This document shows positions 24,012 through 35,659 of a stretch of 64,000 bases of DNA, piece by piece. The notes beneath the pieces were generated by a model that ran no database searches, was not told the DNA's origin, and was given only the letters and a program-made list of their open reading frames with translations. This DNA comes from Longispora fulva. GTDB lineage: Bacteria > Actinomycetota > Actinomycetes > Mycobacteriales > Micromonosporaceae. A program made the translations under genes and the position numbers. The stretch spans positions 3,534,001 through 3,598,000 of the forward strand of contig NZ_JADOUF010000001.1 of NCBI RefSeq assembly GCF_015751905.1. The letters run 5' to 3'. Every line of letters begins with the position of its first letter. The stretch's first letter is position 1.

Positions 24012-25214
24012 TCAAGCCGTATGCGTGACGGGTGCGTTGGGGGTGAACAGTCTTCCGTCGCGCAGCAGGGCCCACAGCACGTCGACGCGGCGGCGGGCCA
24101 GGGCGATGACGGCCTGGACGTGGCGTTGTCCTTCGGCACGTTTCTTCAGGTAGTAGTCGCGGGAGGGTCCGGGGCGCATCATCGCGGTCTGGGCCGACAG
24201 GTAGAACAGTCGTCGCAGTCGGCGGTTGTAGCGTTTGGGCCGGTGCAGGTTGCCGGTCCGGCGTCCGGAGTCACGGGGAACCGGGGCGAGGCCTGCGGCC
24301 GAGGCCAGCCTGCCGGAGTCGGCGTAGGCGGTCAGGTCTCCGACGGACGCGAGAAATTCCGCGCCGAGGATCGGGCCCATGCCGGGCAGCGACTCGATGA
24401 TCTCGGCCTGCGGGTGGCAGCGAAACGTCGCGCCGATCTGCTTGTCGATGCCGCCGATGCGCTCATCCAGGGCGAGGATCTGCCTGGCGAGGTCGGCGAC
24501 CAGGTCGGCGGCCACCGCCTCACCGGGCAGTGCCACCGTCTGAGCGGCGGCTGCGGTCATCGCCTTGTCAGCGACGGTGTCGGCACTACGGACACCTCGT
24601 TTGACCAGCCAGGCTTCCAGGCGGCTGCGACCGCGTCGGCGCAGGGCCGCCGGGGTCTGAAACCCTGTCAGCAGGATCAGTGGTCCCTTGGCGGCCGAGT
24701 AGTCGAATGCGCGTTCCAGCGCGGGGAACACGCCTGTGAGCAGGTCACGCAGCCGGTTGATCATCCGGACCCGGTCGGCGATCAGATCGGATCGGTGGGC
24801 GGTGAGCAACGCCAGCTCGGTCACGAGTTCGCCCGGCACATCGATCGGGGCGAAGTCCCGGCGCAGCCGCGCGGTTTCGGCGATCACGTAGGCGTCACGC
24901 GCGTCGGTCTTGGCTTCGCCCCGATAGCCGCCGGCCATCCGGTTGACCGTCCGGCCGGGGACATAGACCGGCCGGTGACCGGCCGCGGCAAGCAACGCGA
25001 GCAACAACGCCGAGGCCGTCCCGGAGATGTCAACTGCCCAGTCGGCCTGCTCAGCCAGCGCTCCGGCCTCGCCGATCGCGTTCAGGATCGCCGTCTCGTC
25101 GTTGTCGATCTTCTTCGACCATACCGAGGCGCCGACTTCATCGACGGCGACCGCCCAGTGATGGCCCTTGCCGGCGTCAACGCCGACCCAGACCCGGGCC
25201 CGAACCTGCCCCAC
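24012..25214 (-). CDS. IS110 family transposase
   Basis: Transposase of about 400 residues with the two-domain IS110 plan. The N-terminal RuvC-like DEDD domain begins VRARVWVGVDAGKGHHWAVA, with further acidic residues in AVDISGTASALLLALL and GEAKTDARDAYVIAE. The C-terminal Tnp_20 domain contains ESLPGMGPILGAEFLASVGD and the conserved Ser-rich ASAAGLAPVPRDSGRR. I chose GTG 25214 with GGAGGA upstream, directly before the RuvC strand; the frame is open further but adds non-family residues. The catalytic residues look intact, so the element may still be active. The recombinase is expected to be directed by its bridge RNA. Confidence 0.92.
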   Translation of the reverse strand: MGQVRARVWVGVDAGKGHHWAVAVDEVGASVWSKKIDNDETAILNAIGEAGALAEQADWAVDISGTASALLLALLAAAGHRPVYVPGRTVNRMAGGYRGEAKTDARDAYVIAETARLRRDFAPIDVPGELVTELALLTAHRSDLIADRVRMINRLRDLLTGVFPALERAFDYSAAKGPLILLTGFQTPAALRRRGRSRLEAWLVKRGVRSADTVADKAMTAAAAQTVALPGEAVAADLVADLARQILALDERIGGIDKQIGATFRCHPQAEIIESLPGMGPILGAEFLASVGDLTAYADSGRLASAAGLAPVPRDSGRRTGNLHRPKRYNRRLRRLFYLSAQTAMMRPGPSRDYYLKKRAEGQRHVQAVIALARRRVDVLWALLRDGRLFTPNAPVTHTA

Positions 25215-25400
25215 ACGCCCCTCCTCCAGCCATACCAACACGTTCTGGCCCGAAGAGCGCCCCGCCGTCATCTCCGTAAACAGCGACCGAATCGCAGATC
25301 TCAATCAGCAGTCAGGGCACCCAAGAGAACCGGGCGGCCACTCCTGGTCAGCCACTGACGACAAGACCCCATAAGCCACACCCGGCCCTCCCGGGCCACC
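25215..25400 (-). ncRNA. Candidate IS110 bridge (seek) RNA region
   Basis: Non-coding stretch upstream of the transposase on its own strand, about 185 nt, the size and position expected for an IS110 bridge RNA. It contains several inverted repeats, such as GGCCC/GGGCC around 25385-25397. I assign it from family knowledge and position only; the target- and donor-binding loops were not derived. Confidence 0.3.
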
Positions 25401-26607: not shown

Positions 26608-29511
26608 CTAGCCCGCCGGCGGTGGCTGCAGGTGCGCGGCGTAGTCGCACAGGGCCGCCCGGTTCGGTTGGCCCGTCTTGGCGATCAGGCTGGCCACGTG
26701 CTTCTCCGCCGTGCGGGGCGAGATGAACAGCCGCTCGGCGATCTCCCGGTTGGCCGGGGCCGAGCCGAGCAGCCGGAACACCTCGTACTCGCGGACCGTG
26801 ACGCCGCCGTCGCGGAGCACGGCGGGCACCTTGCCGGTGCCGGAGCGGCGCTGGCCCACGTTGGCCCCCGCCCGGCGCAGCAGCCCGCGGCAGGCCGCCG
26901 CGACCGCCGGGGCGGTGGGGTGGAAGTACTGCTCCGCCGCCCGCAGCCACCCCTCCGGGTCGCCCCAGCCGTGCGCGACGGCGTCCTCGGCCACGAGCCG
27001 CAGGCCCAGGTGGTGGGCGACCGGGAAGGGGCGGGCCGCCTCCCGCGCCGCCGTCATCGCCGCCGTCGCCTCGGCGGCCCGGCCGGCCCTGCCCAGCGAC
27101 ACCGCCTGGGCGAACAGCACGAACTGCCGGTTCCACCGCAGCTGGCCTGCCGGGTCCTCCTCCGCCGGGGCGTGGCCGGCCAGTACCCGGAGGAAGGGGC
27201 GCAGGCCGAAACGGCCGTCGAGGGGGAAGATGTTGAGGTTGGTCCGCGACCAGGCCAGGGACTCGCCGAGTTCGGCGACGGCCCGGTCCCGGTCCTCCTC
27301 GAGCAGCGCGCAGAAGGCCCGACAATGCCCGAACACGACGGGCACGTGCATCGACCCCGTCCCGCCGCGCCGGCCGAACTCGGCGAGCGCCCGGTCCATC
27401 TCCCGCCGTTGTCCCTGGTGTGCGGCCACCACGGCCAGGGTCAGCAGCGCCATCCGCTGGTTGTCCACGTGCCGCAGCCGGGTACTCGACGCCAGGCAGC
27501 GCTCGGCCACCTCCCGCGCGTCGGCGTGGTCGCCGCGCAGAGCCCAGATCCTGGCCAGGGACACCTCGACCGTGTGCAGCAGGGAGATCTCGCCGATCCC
27601 GCGGGCGGCCTTCAGCGCGCGTTCGAGCTGGTGGGAGTGGCCGGTGCGCAGGAACTCGTTGCCGCCGAGCAGGGTCAGGGCGTGGATGTGCCAGACCGGC
27701 AGCCCGTGCGTCTCGGCGATGTCCAGCACGCGTTCCAGGCACGCGTCGGCCTCGCCGGTACCCCGCAGGCGGGCCACTTTGGACAGCAGCTGCCAGGACT
27801 GGCAGGCGACCACGTGCTGGCCGGCGGCCTCCGCGGCCCCGACGGCCCGGGTCGCCAGCTCCTCGGCGCGGACCAGCCGGTCGGGCCCCGTGGCCCCCAT
27901 GTGCCCGTTGAGGGTCAGCTCGCCCTCGACGACGTCGAGCGCCGCGGTCTGTTCGGCTCCCCCAGCCCGGCCGAGCAGGGTACGGGCGAGGGCCACCTGG
28001 GCCACCCCGTCGGCCACCCGGCCGGCGGACGCAGCCCACCAGGCCATCCGGGTGTGCAGGGCCGCGGCGCGGGCGTGGCTGAGCCCGCCGGTGACCGGCA
28101 GCTGGTCGATGAGCGCCAGGGCGCGGTCGAGCTGCCCGGCCTCGGCGAGCGCGTGCGGCAGCGACTCCAGGACGTCGGTGAGTTCCGGCCGTCCGGTGAG
28201 GAGTTCCCTGGCCCGTTCCAGCAGGCCGACGGCCGACGTGAGGCCGCCGGCGGCGAGGGCGGCGTCGCCGGCCCTGGCGAACAGCAGCCCGGCCCCCGCC
28301 AGGTCGCCGCTCGCCAGGCGCAGTGTCGCGACCCGCTGTCCCCAGTCGCCGGGCAGGCCCGGGTGGGCGCGCTCCACCGCGTCGGCGGCCCGCCGGGCGA
28401 TCGCCGCGCGCTCGGTCGGGGTCAGCGAGGCGAGGAGCGCGTCGGCGATCAGGGCGTGGCGGAACTCGTAGGAGTCGGCCACCGAGCCGCTCGGGGTGAC
28501 CAGGTGCCCGTCGATGGCGGCCCGCAGGTGCGCGATGAGGCTGCGGTCGTCGAGCCCGGTGACGGTGCGCAGCTCGGCCAGGTCGAACCGGCGGCCCAGT
28601 ACGGCGGCGACCTGCAGGAGTTCGCCGCCCTGGGCGCCGAGCCGGTGGGCGCGCCGGGCGACGCTGCGCACCACCGTGACCGGCACCTCGATGTCGAGGT
28701 CGCCGAAGACCCGCCAGCCGGCGGGGCCGGTACGCAGCACGTTCGCCGCGACCATGCCGCGGAGGATCTCCTCGACGACGAACGGGCTGCCGTCGCCGTG
28801 CTGGACCAGATGGTCGCCCACCGTCCCCGGCAGCGCGCCGCGGTCCACGCCGAGGCAGGCGGCGGCCATCTGGCGCACCTGTTCCGGGGTGAACCCGCTC
28901 AGCTCGGACAGGACGGCGGACCGGCGGCGGGCGGCGTCCCGGGCGAGGTCCGCGGCCCGGACCGGGTCGGGGCGCAGGGTGGCCAGGATCAGCACCGGCA
29001 GTCCGGCGACATTGTCCACCAGGTAGTCCAGGACCGCGAGGGTCTCGGCGTCGGCGTCGTGCAGGTCCTCGATGACGAGCAGGCATCCGGTGTCCCGCCC
29101 GGCGACGGCGAGGAGGCGCAGCACCGCCTCGGCCACCTCGATCAGGGTCACCGGGCCGTCGGCCACGGTGCCGTCGCGCCAGTCGGGCACGAGTCGGGCG
29201 AGCACCGGCCGGTACGGCGCGAGCTCCGGGTCCCGGGGCGGCCCGAGCAGCCGGAAGTAGGACAGCAGCGCCTCGGTGACCGGCCGGAACGGCATCGCCA
29301 GCCCGCTGGTGCCGCTGCGACCGCGCAGCACCGGCATCCCGGCGGCGCCGGCCCGGGCCGCGCACTCGGCCGCCAGCCGGGACTTGCCGATCCCGGCCTC
29401 GCCGATCAGGAACAGGGTGCCGCCGCGCCGGTCGCGGGCCGCCGCCAGCCCCCGGTCGAGGAGCGCCAGCTCAGCACCGCGGCCGATGACGACGGGCGAT
29501 GTGATCTGCAC
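26608..29511 (-). CDS. LuxR family LAL-type regulator
   Basis: Large ATP-binding regulator of the LAL class, 967 residues: N-terminal AAA/NTPase domain with Walker A GEAGIGKS (about residues 37-44) and Walker B LLVIEDLHDADAE, a long helical TPR-like middle, and a C-terminal LuxR HTH (LTVREYEVFRLL-like, then NREIAERLFISPRTAEKHVA, SLIAKTGQPNRAAL). Such proteins often activate pathway-specific biosynthetic genes. It begins 61 bp downstream of the lanA-like gene on the same strand, so it could be the last gene of the lanthipeptide operon and its activator (inference). The start is GTG 29511, with no clear Shine-Dalgarno sequence. Confidence 0.9.
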   Translation of the reverse strand: MQITSPVVIGRGAELALLDRGLAAARDRRGGTLFLIGEAGIGKSRLAAECAARAGAAGMPVLRGRSGTSGLAMPFRPVTEALLSYFRLLGPPRDPELAPYRPVLARLVPDWRDGTVADGPVTLIEVAEAVLRLLAVAGRDTGCLLVIEDLHDADAETLAVLDYLVDNVAGLPVLILATLRPDPVRAADLARDAARRRSAVLSELSGFTPEQVRQMAAACLGVDRGALPGTVGDHLVQHGDGSPFVVEEILRGMVAANVLRTGPAGWRVFGDLDIEVPVTVVRSVARRAHRLGAQGGELLQVAAVLGRRFDLAELRTVTGLDDRSLIAHLRAAIDGHLVTPSGSVADSYEFRHALIADALLASLTPTERAAIARRAADAVERAHPGLPGDWGQRVATLRLASGDLAGAGLLFARAGDAALAAGGLTSAVGLLERARELLTGRPELTDVLESLPHALAEAGQLDRALALIDQLPVTGGLSHARAAALHTRMAWWAASAGRVADGVAQVALARTLLGRAGGAEQTAALDVVEGELTLNGHMGATGPDRLVRAEELATRAVGAAEAAGQHVVACQSWQLLSKVARLRGTGEADACLERVLDIAETHGLPVWHIHALTLLGGNEFLRTGHSHQLERALKAARGIGEISLLHTVEVSLARIWALRGDHADAREVAERCLASSTRLRHVDNQRMALLTLAVVAAHQGQRREMDRALAEFGRRGGTGSMHVPVVFGHCRAFCALLEEDRDRAVAELGESLAWSRTNLNIFPLDGRFGLRPFLRVLAGHAPAEEDPAGQLRWNRQFVLFAQAVSLGRAGRAAEATAAMTAAREAARPFPVAHHLGLRLVAEDAVAHGWGDPEGWLRAAEQYFHPTAPAVAAACRGLLRRAGANVGQRRSGTGKVPAVLRDGGVTVREYEVFRLLGSAPANREIAERLFISPRTAEKHVASLIAKTGQPNRAALCDYAAHLQPPPAG

Positions 29512-29572
29512 AGGGCGAGGCTACCGTCCCGGGCACCGTCGTGGGCCCAACCGTCCGCCGGGCCCACCCGGG

Positions 29573-29791
29573 TCAGAAGTTGCCGAGGGTGTGGACGCAG
29601 GTGATGCTGGTCTCCGTGATCGTGTCCTCCGCGGCGACCACCGCCGCCGCGGCGAGCAGCAGGCCCGCCAGGCCGGTCATCCGTCGCAGGGTCGCGCGGC
29701 CCGAGCCGATCAGGCCCGAGGGATGATCGATGGTCGTGCCCTCCCTGGCCTCCGGGTCCTTCCACAGTCGGGCCAGTTCCTCATTGGTCAT
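29573..29791 (-). CDS. lanA: Class II lanthipeptide precursor (lanA-like)
   Basis: Precursor of 72 residues whose N-terminal half (MTNEELARLWKDPEAREGTT, then IDHPSG) matches the leader pattern of the actagardine/mersacidin group (x-WKD-x2-x-R-x4-HPAG). The C-terminal part is unusual: a basic patch (RATLRRM, to 38), a hydrophobic run (LAGLLLAAAAVVAA, 41-54), then a putative core EDTITETSITCVHTLGNF (55-72) with five Thr, one Ser and only one Cys. At most one (methyl)lanthionine could form. V-A-A before Glu55 fits signal peptidase I. The CTLTxEC lipid II motif is absent. ATG 29791 overlaps the lanM stop in ATGA, so the two genes are coupled, with the precursor second. Role as precursor is inferred from leader plus lanM. 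Confidence 0.75.
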   Translation of the reverse strand: MTNEELARLWKDPEAREGTTIDHPSGLIGSGRATLRRMTGLAGLLLAAAAVVAAEDTITETSITCVHTLGNF

Positions 29792-32700
29792 CCGGTGTCC
29801 TTTCGGTGCGGTGATGGCGAGGTCGGCGTCCTCAGGAGCGGCACCGACGGCACGCGGGCGGGGAACGCGAGGCGCAGCAGACCATAGCCGATGCCGGCGA
29901 GTCCGCCGAACAGTCCGGGGCTGGGCACCGCGCCGGGGGTGGAGCAGCGCGGGCCGTGCCGGTCGAGACCGGCCAGGAAGGCCCCCGCGCGCCGGGGCAG
30001 CGCGTCGACGGCGACCGGGTGGCCGGCTGTCGCGGCCACGAGCAGCAGTTCCAGCCGGCCCGTGTCACCGTGGCAGAGGCAGTCGTCGGGGAACGCCACC
30101 GGGCGGGCGGCGTCGACGATCGCGTCCTCGACGAGGGGGGCGCGCAGGCCGAGGTCCACAAGGGCGAGAGCGATTCCGGGGGTACCGTCGCACCAGGTCC
30201 CCGGCGTGCCGGCCGCCTCCGCCGTGCGGCTCGTGTCCCGCTCGCCGGCCGTGCCGTTCCCGTCGGCGGCGGGCTCCGGTCGTCCGGCCCTCAGCAGGAG
30301 GCTCGCGGCCTCGGGCCGTTCGCCGTGTCGGGCCAGCGCCCAGCCGACCCCCGCAGCGCCGAACGCCATCCCGCCGGTCGCCGGAAGCCGGTCGCGCAGG
30401 TGCGGTGCCCAGGACGTGGCCAGCTTCCGGGCGTGGTCGAGCCCGGTGGCCTCGTGCACGGCCACCAGCGCCGCCAGGTTGCCGGCCGCCCCGGTGAGCA
30501 GGCCCGGCCCGGGGGCTCCGACGAGCGCCGGGTCGCAGAGGGCGACCGCGCGTTCGACCCAGCCGGCGATCTCCCGGTCGTTCCACAATGCCGCGAGGTG
30601 GGTCAGCGCGTAGGCCAGGCCGGCCGGGCCGTGCAGTCCGCTGCCGGACAGCGCCAGGTACTCCGGGTGCGCCGCCAGGCCGGCCAGCAGCCCGGGCACG
30701 GGCCGCACCGCCTGGCTGGCCAGTTCCGCGTACCGGGCGATGCCGGTGAGTTCCGACAGGTGGGCCAGGAACAGCGCGGTGCCGGAGTGCCCGCTGACCA
30801 GGCCGGCACGTTGCGGGAGAATGCCCCAGCGGTCGGCGTCGACGGCCTCCATGCCCAGCCAGTTCACCCGGTGCCCGTCGGTGTGCGCCATGGCCAGCAG
30901 CTGGTCGCCGATCCCGCACGCCGCGGCGAGCAGCCGTTCGGACCCGACCGGCGTGCGGGGGGCCGGCGCGGGTCGCGGGGGGCCCGGCCGGTGCTCGGGC
31001 ATCGGGGTGCGCACCGCCAGCGACGCCTGGATCACCCACTCCTGGTCGTACTGGTCCACGCCCCGCATCGCGGCCAACTTGCCGGCGACCCGCTCCAGTC
31101 CGGACTCGGCCAGGTCCGCGACCGGGGTGCCGTCGCCGGCCAGCAGCTGTCGGCCCGCCGGCCGGTGGGTGAAGTACGGGACGTCCCCGGCCCACAGGTC
31201 GGCCAGCTCGTGCCGCACGGCCGACCAGCGCACCGGGTCGTCGGCGGAGTCCGGCCACAGCGCGTCGAGGAACCGGTCCCGGTCGAGGGCGTCGCGCAGC
31301 AGGTCGGGGTGGGTGGACTCGTCGAGCAGGGTCGTGTACCGCCGGGTGGCCCGCAGCACCACCCGCATCTCGTCGGCGCCGAACCGCCCCACCAGCCGGG
31401 TCAGCTCGGCGCGCCGCTCGCTGATCACCTGGTACGCCTCGCGGAACCCGGCCAGGATGCTCTCCCCGAAGGACTCCGGCTCGACGTCCGCGCCGTCGAG
31501 CCGGGGCCGGTTGTCCGCGCCGGGGAACACGGCCGGTTCCCGGGTCAGCCGCATCTCGTCGGTGCCCGGGTCGGCCCACACGTCGAGGCCGTTCGGGGAC
31601 GCCGCGCCCTTGTCGCCGCCCACGCCGGAGATGTCCAGGGCGCCGTGGTCGCCGATCAGCAGGTGCGGGAGCAGGGCGATCCGGTACACCGAGGACTCCA
31701 GTGCCCGGGCTGCCGGGTCGTCGGCGTCGGCGGGCATCGCCGGGTGGAACAGGGTCTCGACGTCCACGACGACCGGCTGGTCCGCGCAGGCCAGCAGGTT
31801 CTCGTAGTGGATGTCGGTGCCGTCCAGGGCGTGGAGCAGGGCGAGGAGCGCGCCGAGCCGGCGGTAGAAGGCGTCGACCTGGCGCAGGTCGGCGCACGGC
31901 CCTGCGACGGCGAACTCCATCCAGCCGTAGGGCCCGCGGTCCGCGACGGCCAGCGTCCGCAGGTCCAGGCCGGGCAGCGCGGCGTTCGTCCAGGCCAGCA
32001 CGTCGTTGAAGTGCGCGTGCGCGGCGAGCGGCCGGGGCTTGTAGACCACCCGGGCGCCGTCGGCGAACCGCAGCACCGCCACCCTGCGGCCGCGCCGGTG
32101 GCTGTCCCCGGCCGCCATGTCCACGTCGACCAGCGGGCCCGGGTCGACACCGCCGAGCAGGTCCGCGACGATCCGGCCCCGATCGGCGGCGAGCCGGGCC
32201 GCGAGCTCCGACCACGCGGCGACGGCCGCGTCGCAGGCGCCGGCCAGGATCCGGGCCAGCACCGGCCACTCGGCGAGCAGGGTACCCAGATGATCCGGGG
32301 TGGACAGTCGTCCGACGAAGTCGGCGAAACGCTCCTGCGGGGTCTCCCCCGCCAGTTTCCCGGTGAGCCGCAGGACGTTGAGCTCCAGCACCAGGGTGCG
32401 CCGGGCCAGCCGGGTCAGGTCGCCGGACAGGTGCCGGGCGAAGCAGTCCGCGAGGGCCCGCGGCACCTCCGGCAGGTCGGCGCTGGCGCGGTGCACGAGG
32501 GGCGCGAGGATCCGGGCGAACCCGGCCTGCGTCGTCGCCGTCGGGCCGCCGAGGGCCTCGGCGACGTAGCGCGCCCAGGGCGGCTCCCCGCCGGCGGCGG
32601 CCACGTCCTCGGGGGGCTGCGCGAGCAGGGCGAGCAGGCGGGGCTCGTCCAGGCCGGCGACGGCGAGCCGGAGGTCGAGGTACCCGTCGCACGCTGTGCG

Positions 32701-32928
32701 CCACGCGGCCAGCCGGCGCTCGGCCCGCCGCAGGGCCGGATCCACCGGCGTGCCGGTCCCGGCCGGTGTCTCGGGCCTGCCAGCCCCGGCCGACGTGTCA
32801 GGCCCTCCCGCCCCGGCCGGTGCCGCCGGCCGCGCGGCCCGGCGTTCGGTCAGGGACAGGCCGCGGGCCCACCAACCGGCGGCGAGCCCGAGCACGTCCG
32901 GTTCGGTACTGGTCACGCCGCCGAGCAT
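29788..32928 (-). CDS. lanM: Class II lanthipeptide synthetase LanM
   Basis: Bifunctional lanthipeptide synthetase of about 1046 residues. The N-terminal kinase-like dehydratase activates and eliminates Ser/Thr of the precursor; landmarks are ARVVYKPRPLAAHAHFNDVL, DGTDIHYENLLA and VVDVETLFHP. The C-terminal LanC-like cyclase has zinc ligands Cys913 (TWCDGTPG), Cys952 and His953 (CLCHGDTG) plus GHSGTALFLAHL and LLTGAAG repeats of the toroid. It is cytoplasmic. Start: ATG 32928 or GTG 32916, neither with a strong Shine-Dalgarno sequence. Its stop overlaps the lanA-like start. No LanT transporter, LanFEG immunity genes or tailoring enzyme are adjacent. Confidence 0.92.
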   Translation of the reverse strand: MLGGVTSTEPDVLGLAAGWWARGLSLTERRAARPAAPAGAGGPDTSAGAGRPETPAGTGTPVDPALRRAERRLAAWRTACDGYLDLRLAVAGLDEPRLLALLAQPPEDVAAAGGEPPWARYVAEALGGPTATTQAGFARILAPLVHRASADLPEVPRALADCFARHLSGDLTRLARRTLVLELNVLRLTGKLAGETPQERFADFVGRLSTPDHLGTLLAEWPVLARILAGACDAAVAAWSELAARLAADRGRIVADLLGGVDPGPLVDVDMAAGDSHRRGRRVAVLRFADGARVVYKPRPLAAHAHFNDVLAWTNAALPGLDLRTLAVADRGPYGWMEFAVAGPCADLRQVDAFYRRLGALLALLHALDGTDIHYENLLACADQPVVVDVETLFHPAMPADADDPAARALESSVYRIALLPHLLIGDHGALDISGVGGDKGAASPNGLDVWADPGTDEMRLTREPAVFPGADNRPRLDGADVEPESFGESILAGFREAYQVISERRAELTRLVGRFGADEMRVVLRATRRYTTLLDESTHPDLLRDALDRDRFLDALWPDSADDPVRWSAVRHELADLWAGDVPYFTHRPAGRQLLAGDGTPVADLAESGLERVAGKLAAMRGVDQYDQEWVIQASLAVRTPMPEHRPGPPRPAPAPRTPVGSERLLAAACGIGDQLLAMAHTDGHRVNWLGMEAVDADRWGILPQRAGLVSGHSGTALFLAHLSELTGIARYAELASQAVRPVPGLLAGLAAHPEYLALSGSGLHGPAGLAYALTHLAALWNDREIAGWVERAVALCDPALVGAPGPGLLTGAAGNLAALVAVHEATGLDHARKLATSWAPHLRDRLPATGGMAFGAAGVGWALARHGERPEAASLLLRAGRPEPAADGNGTAGERDTSRTAEAAGTPGTWCDGTPGIALALVDLGLRAPLVEDAIVDAARPVAFPDDCLCHGDTGRLELLLVAATAGHPVAVDALPRRAGAFLAGLDRHGPRCSTPGAVPSPGLFGGLAGIGYGLLRLAFPARVPSVPLLRTPTSPSPHRKDTG

Positions 32929-33109: not shown

Positions 33110-35212
33110 ATGATCGGGAGAAGGATCAGGCTCGGCGCTATCGCGTCGGCCTGTCTGACCTTGGCCGCGGCGGCGGCCACGACCGTCGGGACGGCCCCGG
33201 CCGCGGCGGCGACCGGGATCCGCACGGGCATGACGTGGACCGTGCTCGGCGAGCAGGACGGGTCGGTGCACGTCGGAGCCGACGGCCAGACCAACGCGTA
33301 CGCCGGGGACACGACGGTCGACCAGTACCGGTCGATCCTGTGTCTCCTGGTGGACGGCCGGTCCGCGCCGGCCGGGATCACGTTCGACTTCAGCAACGGC
33401 TGGGCCCGGGGCGCCGTCCGCGCGACCCCGGCCATCGCGGCCAGCGTGCTGACCTCGCAGGCGCAGGCCGACGAGATCTGCGCCGACACGTTCGGCGCCG
33501 GGTGGCGGCTCGCCGAGTTCCACGACGGCCGGTACGGGCCGAACCTCGACCAGCCGGGCGGCTGGAGCTTCTGGGCCGCCGGCAGCCTCGCCCCGGGCAC
33601 CCGGCTGTGGACGGCGATCAGCGACCAGCCGGCCAACGCCTGGAACTCGGCGGGCACGATGCCGGCGGTCCCGGCGCTGCCCAAGTTCATCGCGGCCGAC
33701 GCCGAGGAGAACCCGATCGCCGGGCAGTACCAGGTGATGTTCCCCGACACGACCGCGGAGACCGACGTGGCCGCCCGTGCCGACGCGCTGGTGGCCGCGT
33801 ACGGCGGCAAGGTCCTCGACGTCCAGACGTCGGTGCTCGGGTTCTCCTTCGCCGGCACCGAGGCGCAGGCCCAGGCGATGAGCGCGCACAGCTGGGTGGA
33901 GACCGTCGAGCAGGACACGACGGTCGACGGGAACGTCGTCCCGTGGCACCTCGACCGGGTGGACCAGCGCGCCCTGCCGCTGGACACCCAGTACGCGCCC
34001 ACCGGCACCGGCGCCGGGGTCAACATCTACGTGCTGGACAGCGGCTTCCGCTACACCCACACGGAGATCGCCGGCCGGGCCCGCAGCGGCGTCGACCTGG
34101 TCGGCGGCAACGGCGTGGACTGCATGGGCCACGGCACGGCGACCAGTGGCATGGCGGCCGGCCGCACGGTCGGCGTCGCCCCCGCCGCGACCCTGATCTC
34201 GGTGCGCATCTTCGGCTGCTCCGGCGGCACCAGCCGCTCGAAGATCGTGTCGGCCTTCGACTGGGTGGCCCGCAACCACGTCAACCCGGCGGTGGCCAAC
34301 GGCAGCTTCGGCGGCAAGGTCGGCTTCCTGCGCCGCTGGTTCAACTGGCGCACCCCGGAGGACAAGGCCGTCCGGCGCGCGACCCAGGCCGGGGTGACCG
34401 TCGTCGTGTCGGCCGGCAACAACAACGACAAGGCGAAGAACTACACCCCGGCGCGGGCCGCGGAGGCCATCACGGTCGGCGCGACCAACTCCGGCGACCA
34501 GCGCGCGTACTTCAGCAACTACGGCAAGGTCGACCTGTTCGCCCCCGGCCAGGCCGTGCTGTCGGGCAACCAGCTCGGCGACACGTCGTACTCGTCGTGG
34601 GACGGCACCTCGTTCTCCTCGCCGATGGTCGCCGGGGCCGCGGCGCTGTACCTGCAGAGCCACCCGACGGCCTCGCCCGGCCAGGTGAAGTCGTTCCTGC
34701 AGAACAACGCCACGCCCAACGTGGTCGGCAACCCGGGCTCCGGCTCCACGAACCGGCTGCTGTACACGCGGGCCGCCGCCACCCACGCAGGCATGACGTG
34801 GACCGTGCTCGAACAGCGCGCCGGCGCGGTCCGGGTCGGCGCGGACGGCACGACCAACCCGTACTCCGGCGACACCCCGGCGAGCGCGGCGTTGCCCGTG
34901 CTGTGCCTGTTGGTCGACAACACCCCGGTGCCGGCGGGCATCACGCCGAGCTTCTACGCCGGCTGGGCCCGCGGCCCGGTGCGGCTGAGCCCGGCGGTGT
35001 CCGGTGGCGACCTGACCAGCCGGGCGACCGCGGACGCGGTGTGCGCGGCGAACTTCGGGGCCGGCTGGCGGATGGCCGAGTTCCACGACGGCCGGTACGG
35101 CGCGAACCTGGAGTTCGGCGGCGGCTGGGCCTTCTGGGGGGCCGGGACGCTGCCGGCCGGCACCCGGTTCTGGACGGCGATCAACGACCAGCCGGCGAAC
35201 AACTGGAACTAG
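33110..35212 (+). CDS. Secreted subtilase (S8) flanked by two copies of a 140-residue domain
   Basis: Extracellular serine protease of 700 residues. Order: signal peptide (about 1-34), domain copy 1 (about 40-179), I9-like propeptide (about 190-275), S8 catalytic domain (about 280-555; Asp310 in YVLDSGF, His341 in MGHGTATSGM, oxyanion Asn437 in SAGNNND, Ser501 in GTSFSSPM) and domain copy 2 (about 561-700). The two copies share GMTWTVL, CLLVDxxxxPAGIT, GWARG, FGAGWR-x-AEFHDGRYG, GTR-x-WTAI and DQPAN-x-WN. I do not recognise that domain. Start ATG has GGGAGAG 5 nt upstream. It is divergent from lanM (181 bp), so it could be the lanthipeptide leader protease, though nothing proves this. A hairpin follows. 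Confidence 0.9.
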   Translation: MIGRRIRLGAIASACLTLAAAAATTVGTAPAAAATGIRTGMTWTVLGEQDGSVHVGADGQTNAYAGDTTVDQYRSILCLLVDGRSAPAGITFDFSNGWARGAVRATPAIAASVLTSQAQADEICADTFGAGWRLAEFHDGRYGPNLDQPGGWSFWAAGSLAPGTRLWTAISDQPANAWNSAGTMPAVPALPKFIAADAEENPIAGQYQVMFPDTTAETDVAARADALVAAYGGKVLDVQTSVLGFSFAGTEAQAQAMSAHSWVETVEQDTTVDGNVVPWHLDRVDQRALPLDTQYAPTGTGAGVNIYVLDSGFRYTHTEIAGRARSGVDLVGGNGVDCMGHGTATSGMAAGRTVGVAPAATLISVRIFGCSGGTSRSKIVSAFDWVARNHVNPAVANGSFGGKVGFLRRWFNWRTPEDKAVRRATQAGVTVVVSAGNNNDKAKNYTPARAAEAITVGATNSGDQRAYFSNYGKVDLFAPGQAVLSGNQLGDTSYSSWDGTSFSSPMVAGAAALYLQSHPTASPGQVKSFLQNNATPNVVGNPGSGSTNRLLYTRAAATHAGMTWTVLEQRAGAVRVGADGTTNPYSGDTPASAALPVLCLLVDNTPVPAGITPSFYAGWARGPVRLSPAVSGGDLTSRATADAVCAANFGAGWRMAEFHDGRYGANLEFGGGWAFWGAGTLPAGTRFWTAINDQPANNWN

Positions 35213-35302: not shown

Positions 35303-35659
35303 TCAGCCGCAGGCGTACGTGCCGCGGAACTGCTCGAACGACGCGCCGTTCCAGGCGCGGTAGGCGGTCGGGGTGGTGCCGGCGCAGTTGTAGAGCGCCT
35401 GGCCGTTCCCCTGGGCCACCACGGTCCAGGCTCCGGTGGCGGCGTTCTGCCTCTCCAACCGGACCCAGGCGTCGCCGCCCGAACCGTCGGGGCAGTCGTA
35501 GTAGCCGTCTGCGAACAGCTGGGTGGTGAAGTCGAAGATGGCGTAGTAGGAGCTGCAGACGGGCCTGGCCTGTGCCGGGGTCGAGACGGCGGCGGTGAGG
35601 CCGGTGGCCGTGACGGCGAGGGCTGCGGCGAGGGCCGCCGAACGCAGAGGTCGCGACAT
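35303..35659 (-). CDS. Small secreted four-cysteine protein
   Basis: Secreted protein of 118 residues: signal peptide about 1-31 (LAVTATGLTAAVSTPAQA), then a mature part of about 87 residues with four Cys (PVCSSYYA, YDCPDG, YNCAGT, YACG at the C-terminus), enough for two disulfides. Aromatic-rich and beta-like; family not recognised. ATG 35659 has AAGGAG 7 nt upstream. Two overlapping palindromes lie in its promoter region (35679-35699). Monocistronic. Confidence 0.75.
   Translation of the reverse strand: MSRPLRSAALAAALAVTATGLTAAVSTPAQARPVCSSYYAIFDFTTQLFADGYYDCPDGSGGDAWVRLERQNAATGAWTVVAQGNGQALYNCAGTTPTAYRAWNGASFEQFRGTYACG

Follow-up and report, generated by a model that had tools for sequence, protein, structure and literature searches.

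The window analysed here, a 64,000-nucleotide stretch of Longispora fulva (contig NZ_JADOUF010000001.1; the source genome is a single 8.68-Mb contig, and coordinates below are window positions), appears to carry a copy of a three-gene cassette of actinobacteria, composed of a class II lanthipeptide-type LanM, a short precursor peptide and an AAA/LuxR (LAL) regulator. A sequence-only reading of the same DNA had described the LanM and its peptide as a minimal locus for a small lanthipeptide. The underlying observation stands; in place of the one-ring lanthipeptide, the interpretation now favours a dehydrated peptide that probably acts through the LAL next to it, and in its arrangement the locus resembles a peptide signalling module more closely than it does an antibiotic cluster. 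Gene order, lost catalytic residues, Cys-poor cores, scarce nearby ABC ATPases and covariation are observed directly. On this sequence evidence, the combined statement that the LanM dehydrates a short peptide but closes no ring enzymatically, and that its product is sensed by the adjacent LAL, has at best an even chance of being correct. Its chemical part, a cyclase-deficient LanM whose product is a dehydrated peptide, is likely when taken alone, and its signalling part is about evenly balanced.

Operon layout, relatives and gene order

The three genes form an operon on the minus strand, running from lanM through the 72-residue peptide to the 967-residue LAL. The peptide ATG lies inside the lanM stop codon (ATGA overlap), which couples the peptide translationally to lanM, and the LAL gene begins 61 nt 3′ of the peptide gene. 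The features of the locus are as follows.

29788..32928, minus strand: lanM, 1046 residues, with an intact DUF4135 dehydratase and a LanC domain that retains its zinc ligands but none of the known catalytic residues (domain models, alignment)
31165..32268, minus strand: DUF4135 dehydratase domain, LanM residues 221-588 (domain match; motifs aligned with LicM2 and CylM; clade-conserved columns)
29839..30810, minus strand: LANC_like domain, LanM residues 707-1030 (domain match)
30361..30363, minus strand: Phe856 codon at the acid-His position, equivalent to NisC His212 and the LicM2 motif GFSHG (alignment)
30187..30189, minus strand: Asp914 codon at the enolate-stabilising position of WCxG, equivalent to NisC Tyr285 and CylM Lys876 (alignment; role as given in the accessible portion of PMC9934072)
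30070..30075, minus strand: codons of the zinc ligands Cys952 and His953 (alignment)
30190-30192, minus strand: codon of the third zinc ligand, Cys913 (alignment)
29573..29791, minus strand: precursor peptide gene, 72 residues (open reading frame (ORF), family profile)
29714..29764, minus strand: leader motif WKDPEAREGTTIDHPSG, residues 10-26, common to relatives as WKDP...HPAG (comparison of peptides)
29630..29674, minus strand: hydrophobic segment GLAGLLLAAAAVVAA, residues 40-54, signal-peptide- or transmembrane-like (shuffle test)
29576..29629, minus strand: putative core EDTITETSITCVHTLGNF, residues 55-72, with a predicted boundary (comparison of peptides)
29541..29567, minus strand: 8-bp perfect inverted repeat with an 11-nt loop, just 3′ of the peptide stop (shuffle test)
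26608..29511, minus strand: LAL regulator, 967 residues, with an N-terminal AAA_16 domain and a C-terminal LuxR-type (GerE) helix-turn-helix (domain matches)

Relatives were collected with a 132-residue LanM piece as query, since a direct peptide search gave few real matches: the 72-residue peptide matched 63 of 201 genomes at E values up to 0.1, those recognised as real being leader matches in the own genome and in a same-genus genome (G001). Counting the own genome in every tally, the LanM piece matches 50/150 family genomes (1e-10), 29/298 order genomes (1e-32), 8/394 class genomes (1e-36) and 2/396 phylum genomes (1e-38). The fetched material, designated by L numbers, comprised 59 LanM stretches from the family, 28 loci from the order and 7 from the class, plus L037 and the own-genome loci. 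Left out were L125 (a distant LanM with an unrelated LAL-like match), L139 (no LanM), L038 (a broken-off contig) and L140 (unused); L156, whose peptide frame runs on, is outside the peptide counts, and L130 has a broken lanM frame.

The own genome holds four LanM genes, with a small peptide and a LAL after every one of them, and an additional peptide–LAL pair without lanM (L176). Across the sample, a LanM and a LAL match occur together in 44 loci from 40 genomes, and all 44 LAL-linked lanM loci fall inside one 49-member clade of the LanM tree (local support 0.952). The remaining five clade members are L089, with its LAL (L181) 8.6 kb from lanM and peptide, L094, where a LAL-like start is read at the contig end, L086, L085 and L088. 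The LAL lies 3′ of lanM on the same strand in 42 of the 44 loci, a count that describes position and not frequency because the loci were picked by a LAL match in the fetched stretch; the exceptions are L148 (opposite strand) and L152 (LAL upstream). In 39/44 loci the first aligned LAL base is at most 562 nt from the lanM stop. The locus is consequently not minimal, as the sequence-only reading had it, the LAL at 26608-29511 being its third operon gene. After LanM and LAL, the next most recurrent flank family reaches 16/47 loci in 13 groups.

Transporter genes are scarce around these loci. ABC ATPase signatures lie within 6 kb of 2/47 clade loci (L086 and L094) versus 29/51 others, contig ends limiting some loci. 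L085 and L088 served as comparators in this test and were kept separate in the column tally, yet they lie inside the tree clade; counting them in gives 3/49 clade loci. A first, stricter pattern gave 1/47 versus 13/51 and was loosened because it missed the L085 transporter. Inside the same LanM clade, L085 and L088 have an ABC transporter gene that is followed by two or three WKDP-leader peptides rich in Cys, with a LanT-like C39-type ABC protein read by eye. Because these two loci look like ordinary lantibiotic loci, their position suggests that the cassette arose from an ordinary lantibiotic system.

LanM catalytic residues and precursor peptides

The window LanM scores 706 bits against TIGR03897 (cut-off 304) and consists of a DUF4135 dehydratase fused to a LANC_like domain, the architecture of the LanM class. 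Its GDSH, YKPR, DxHxEN, DxET, RxT and GDxPxF motifs align with those of LicM2 (6st5) and CylM (5dzt), so that the dehydratase catalytic set is present, including the elimination Arg and Thr. The zinc-ligand motifs WC913xG and C952-H953-G align with both enzymes as well, bearing out the earlier assignment of dehydratase motifs and of Cys913, Cys952 and His953 as zinc ligands. In the MAFFT alignment of 98 LanMs used for column counts, the dehydratase columns are near-invariant across the clade; the Lys of YKPR is Arg or Gln in 7 of the 46 clade members with letters there, and the zinc Cys, Cys and His are retained in 42/44 clade members, L085 and L088 apart. From these alignments, the window dehydratase looks intact.

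The cyclase site presents a different picture, in which zinc coordination is conserved and the catalytic positions are not. Specifically, Phe856 occupies the acid-His position, where LicM2 and 46/46 comparator LanMs carry His, and Asp914 occupies the enolate position, where 43/46 comparators carry His, Tyr or Asn, leaving the window LanM with neither the acid His nor an enolate-stabilising residue. Among the 45 clade members whose cyclase positions carry letters, L085 included, the acid His is found in 8, the enolate residue in 4, both in 2 and neither in 35; the corresponding comparator counts (n=46) are 46 with the acid His, 43 with both and 0 with neither. The His is replaced by Asp, Arg, Glu, Trp, Gln, Ala, Phe or Thr, its column undergoing 19 changes over the whole LanM tree (Fitch count). 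It is missing in 16/16 loci with at least two core Cys, so its loss is not simply a consequence of Cys loss. In two LanMs, L041 and L097, the LanC domain is missing altogether (open frames of 694 and 647 residues), and the L097 peptide is also without Cys. An equivalent of NisC Asp141 was considered as a third lost residue and set aside, its column not being conserved in the comparators either.

Biochemical precedent bears directly on these positions. In the available part of PMC7296275, NisC H212N, H212F and D141N retain zinc with cyclisation abolished; because NisC H212F holds zinc without cyclising, zinc ligands alone are no proof of a cyclase. The accessible text of PMC9934072 describes the His as the active-site acid, with harmful mutations in NisC, SpaC, LctM, ProcM and LanCLs, and gives His, Tyr, Lys or Asn as the residue after the zinc Cys in working enzymes. 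As aligned here, the window LanC domain is without the known catalytic residues. An AlphaFold model of the window LanM reached a pLDDT of 43, too low to use.

The peptide gene is well supported. A profile built from 46 relatives, with the window peptide left out, gives the window ORF 24.7 bits (E 9.8e-7) and ranks it best of 893 window ORFs, the runner-up scoring 8.4 bits; in a shuffle control the peptide scores 27.1 bits versus at most 12.9 for 1000 shuffles. This ranking and control argue that it is not a chance ORF, and together with the ATGA overlap they uphold the claim of a 72-residue peptide coupled to lanM. The end of the peptide, EDTITETSITCVHTLGNF, has one Cys, six Ser/Thr and no CTLTxEC-like lipid II motif, as had been said; that motif is presumably the mark of the actagardine/mersacidin group. 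The leader, previously assigned to the actagardine/mersacidin kind, retains that assignment as a resemblance and not as a family match, since it scores 12.9 bits (E 0.084) against the mersacidin/lichenicidin leader model TIGR03898, below the cut-off of 23.5.

In total, 48 cassette peptides were read, 47 of them clean, with core Cys counted in the last 22 residues. They are 55-95 residues long, and many share a WKDP...HPAG leader, a GARxRxLAG-like centre or both. Their ends differ and include a Cys-less DTTVSAP type, a TTCC type, an acidic WWSW type and that of the window peptide. The core contains no Cys in 23 of the 47, one in 8 and two or more in 16, so a single Cys is not the hallmark it was taken to be. 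Ser and Thr account for 25% of the last 20 residues versus 12% of the remainder, and the nonsynonymous rate is below the synonymous rate (dN < dS) in 23/23 orthologous peptide pairs. The TTCC-type loci L170, L098 and L168 adjoin condensation, ketosynthase III, nonribosomal peptide synthetase (NRPS), pyridoxal phosphate (PLP)-enzyme or LanB-like plus adenylation genes.

Two further elements of the window peptide gene were considered. Only 2/300 shuffles are as hydrophobic as GLAGLLLAAAAVVAA, and cleavage after this segment is possible. The inverted repeat following the peptide stop (0/40 shuffles) may act as a partial terminator; a hairpin is seen there in 17/46 loci, and its role as a conserved terminator was dropped.

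Together, these properties fit a mechanism in which the LanM would recognise the leader and dehydrate Ser/Thr in the short core, with very little or no ring closure by the enzyme. From such a defect a linear dehydrated peptide would follow, its Cys remaining free or becoming closed without the usual enzyme. Once released by a presumed route, the core rather than the leader would be sensed by the neighbouring LAL, and through this sensing the cassette would comprise a peptide ligand, its maturation enzyme and a receptor-activator.

The LAL regulator and its covariation with the peptide

The window LAL contains AAA_16 at residues 8-175, GerE at residues 905-958 and the Walker A sequence GEAGIGKS, placing it in the LAL class. 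LALs of cassette loci are 43-57% identical to it in most alignments (39% in L149). Within the own genome, the three linked LALs are 45-54% and the unlinked one (L176) 44% identical, and four further LALs match over part of their length only, at 28-34%. The ligands of LAL regulators are seldom known.

Peptide and LAL also occur together without lanM. At L176 (positions 2368000-2386000 of the own-genome contig), the LAL is directly preceded by a peptide with a WKDP/HPAG leader and the stretch contains no lanM match; the same arrangement is found in the stretches L042, L177 and L182 of G001. In the LAL tree, L042 and L176 group with L041 and L097, the loci whose LanMs have no LanC domain. A 149-residue LAL piece locates the subfamily at 39 places in 27/150 family genomes: 16 beside lanM and peptide, 22 examined away from lanM and one not fetched. 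The 22 include four with a WKDP/HPAG peptide, four with a signal-peptide-like peptide, one with a peptide ending GTGCCIGLPN (L178) and one doubtful case (L179). At L185, L187, L188 and L190, peptides ending C[AG]GCGNG lie just upstream of a LAL with no lanM match; CxGCGNG-type peptides are possibly a second peptide–LAL kind.

Covariation links the three genes. LanM and LAL tree distances correlate at r 0.86 (n=42, 0/2000 permutations), and adjacent peptide and regulator are inherited together, as a ligand and its receptor would be. In partial correlations over all 43 peptides, the leader follows the LanM (0.57) and hardly the LAL (0.13). Near relatives were thinned to 25-29 loci under 12 settings with 30 thinnings each. 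In these sets, core–LAL given LanM has means of 0.34-0.44 and core–LanM given LAL 0.05-0.14, with leader–LanM at 0.30-0.44 and leader–LAL at 0.09-0.19, so that in every setting the core tracks the LAL, and the leader the LanM. The thinned core–LAL permutation tests give 0/300 in 60/60.

Several observations weigh against a dehydrated, uncyclised ligand sensed by the LAL. The main caveat concerns the covariation itself: the core adjoins the LAL gene and the leader adjoins lanM, so linkage could mimic it. Additionally, in the unthinned set (n=43) core–LanM given LAL (0.41) exceeds core–LAL given LanM (0.31), and some of the thinned core–LanM permutation values fall below 0.05, most lying above it. 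No evident peptide was found at 12 of the 22 LALs away from lanM, L181 in the genome of L089 among them, and LALs commonly do no more than activate a pathway. On the chemical side, eight of the 45 clade members retain the acid His, L085 keeps the canonical cyclase residues (L088 has no letters at those positions), and both L085 and L088 carry multi-Cys peptides and a transporter within the tree clade. The 16 peptides with two or more core Cys, which are often adjacent (TTCC), all accompany LanMs without the acid His; core Cys therefore matter for something, another ring-forming route being possible. The hydrophobic segment was also rejected as a family-wide signal peptide, reaching the window level in 17/47 peptides only.

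Among neighbouring genes, an S8 subtilase whose two ends carry a repeated domain lies divergent from lanM (33110-35212, plus strand). It was considered as a dedicated LanP and rejected: a GTS motif is found in just 3/47 clade loci and 0/51 others, S8 matches also occur at L099 and L119 (tblastn), and the protease, not being conserved, is no cassette member. A small secreted-looking protein of no assigned family (35303-35659, minus strand) has its sole match among 196 fetched loci at L042 10198-10401 (36% over 69 residues, E 1e-5), near the orphan peptide–LAL pair there. A 430-residue ORF at 24012-25304 (minus strand) resembles an IS110-type transposase.

Competing explanations and meaning

The product could be a bioactive dehydrated peptide exported by the general secretory pathway or by a distant transporter, with the LAL as its pathway activator and no signalling role. 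The usual function of LALs, the hydrophobic signal-like segment of the window peptide and the position of L170, L098 and L168 beside NRPS or fatty-acid-type genes are in keeping with this rather unlikely explanation, which is opposed by the persistence of peptide–LAL pairs without lanM (L042, L176, L177, L182), by the core–LAL covariation in thinned sets and by ABC ATPases near just 2/47 loci. The product foreseen by the sequence-only reading, a small lanthipeptide containing one (methyl)lanthionine and dehydrobutyrines made by an unusually working LanC, is improbable. It is compatible with the retained zinc ligands, with one core Cys that has Thr/Ser upstream and with the 16/47 relatives holding at least two core Cys, but Phe856 and Asp914 stand at both catalytic positions, 23/47 relatives have no core Cys and L097 is devoid of both LanC domain and Cys. 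The same two substitutions demote the enzymatic ring as leading prediction, leaving the incompletely cyclised alternative of that reading in place.

Very unlikely is a LanM that modifies the peptide incompletely, for example by phosphorylation only, or that serves to bind the LAL. A precedent is the role proposed for degenerate LanM-like proteins that neighbour agr in Clostridium (CA_C0082; PMC10301443, as far as its accessible text goes), and Arg or Gln at the YKPR Lys in 7/46 clade members points the same way; the window LanM nevertheless has all dehydratase motifs checked, and CA_C0082 homologs are reported in that text to be without the elimination Arg and Thr. Decay of a former class II lantibiotic cluster would explain why catalytic residues, transporter and Cys are gone, and would fit the tree neighbours L085 and L088, which resemble intact ordinary lantibiotic loci. 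Intact frames, near-invariant dehydratase columns, dN < dS in every peptide pair compared and the same gene order across 40 genomes make decay highly improbable.

The cassette shares with class II lanthipeptide systems a LanM with DUF4135 and LANC_like domains, a precursor beside lanM and the WKDP...HPAG leader also found in the multi-Cys lantibiotic-like peptides of L085/L088. It differs from them in the absent acid His and enolate residue, the Cys-poor cores, the general absence of a nearby LanT, the LAL in the operon and a TIGR03898 score below cut-off. The cassette LAL resembles MalT-like LAL regulators in its AAA_16 N terminus and LuxR helix-turn-helix C terminus, and differs in that a small peptide gene often lies ahead of LALs of its subfamily. 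Bicereucin, a class II product with few Cys and many dehydrated residues, is similar to the cassette peptides in these respects, but is a two-component lantibiotic with D-amino acids from a firmicute. ProcM is one promiscuous, cyclisation-competent enzyme with diverse substrates. Cyanotins and prochlorosins are likewise LanM substrates, some without Cys according to the available portion of PMC7268733, whereas the cassette has one peptide per degenerate LanM, accompanied by a LAL. CA_C0082-type proteins, as described in the accessible part of PMC10301443, are LanM-like, have a degenerate cyclase and likewise belong with a peptide regulatory system; they have lost the zinc ligands and dehydratase residues as well and serve as Agr effectors, whereas the cassette keeps both and has its peptide gene coupled to lanM.

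No description of a LanM–peptide–LAL operon or of a peptide–LAL pairing was found in the literature searched, which is weak evidence of absence as subscription papers lay mostly outside it. The survey in PMC7268733 discarded ORFs without a core Cys, as its accessible part states; because Cys-less cores are discarded, such surveys would miss many cassette precursors. More broadly, the cassette may tentatively be seen, at somewhat less than even probability, as part of a widespread actinobacterial signalling family in which LanM-dehydrated, uncyclised peptides are dedicated ligands of neighbouring LALs, the LanM being optional, its cyclase lost, and related LALs having swapped the peptide for others, including the CxGCGNG type. 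If dehydration and sensing by the LAL are both true, actinobacterial LanMs would serve gene regulation by making dehydrated peptide ligands, and the loci would form a natural series from full LanM through cyclase-dead and LanC-less forms to no LanM. The peptides would then constitute a testable candidate ligand class for LAL regulators, and annotation of such loci as lantibiotic clusters would be misleading.

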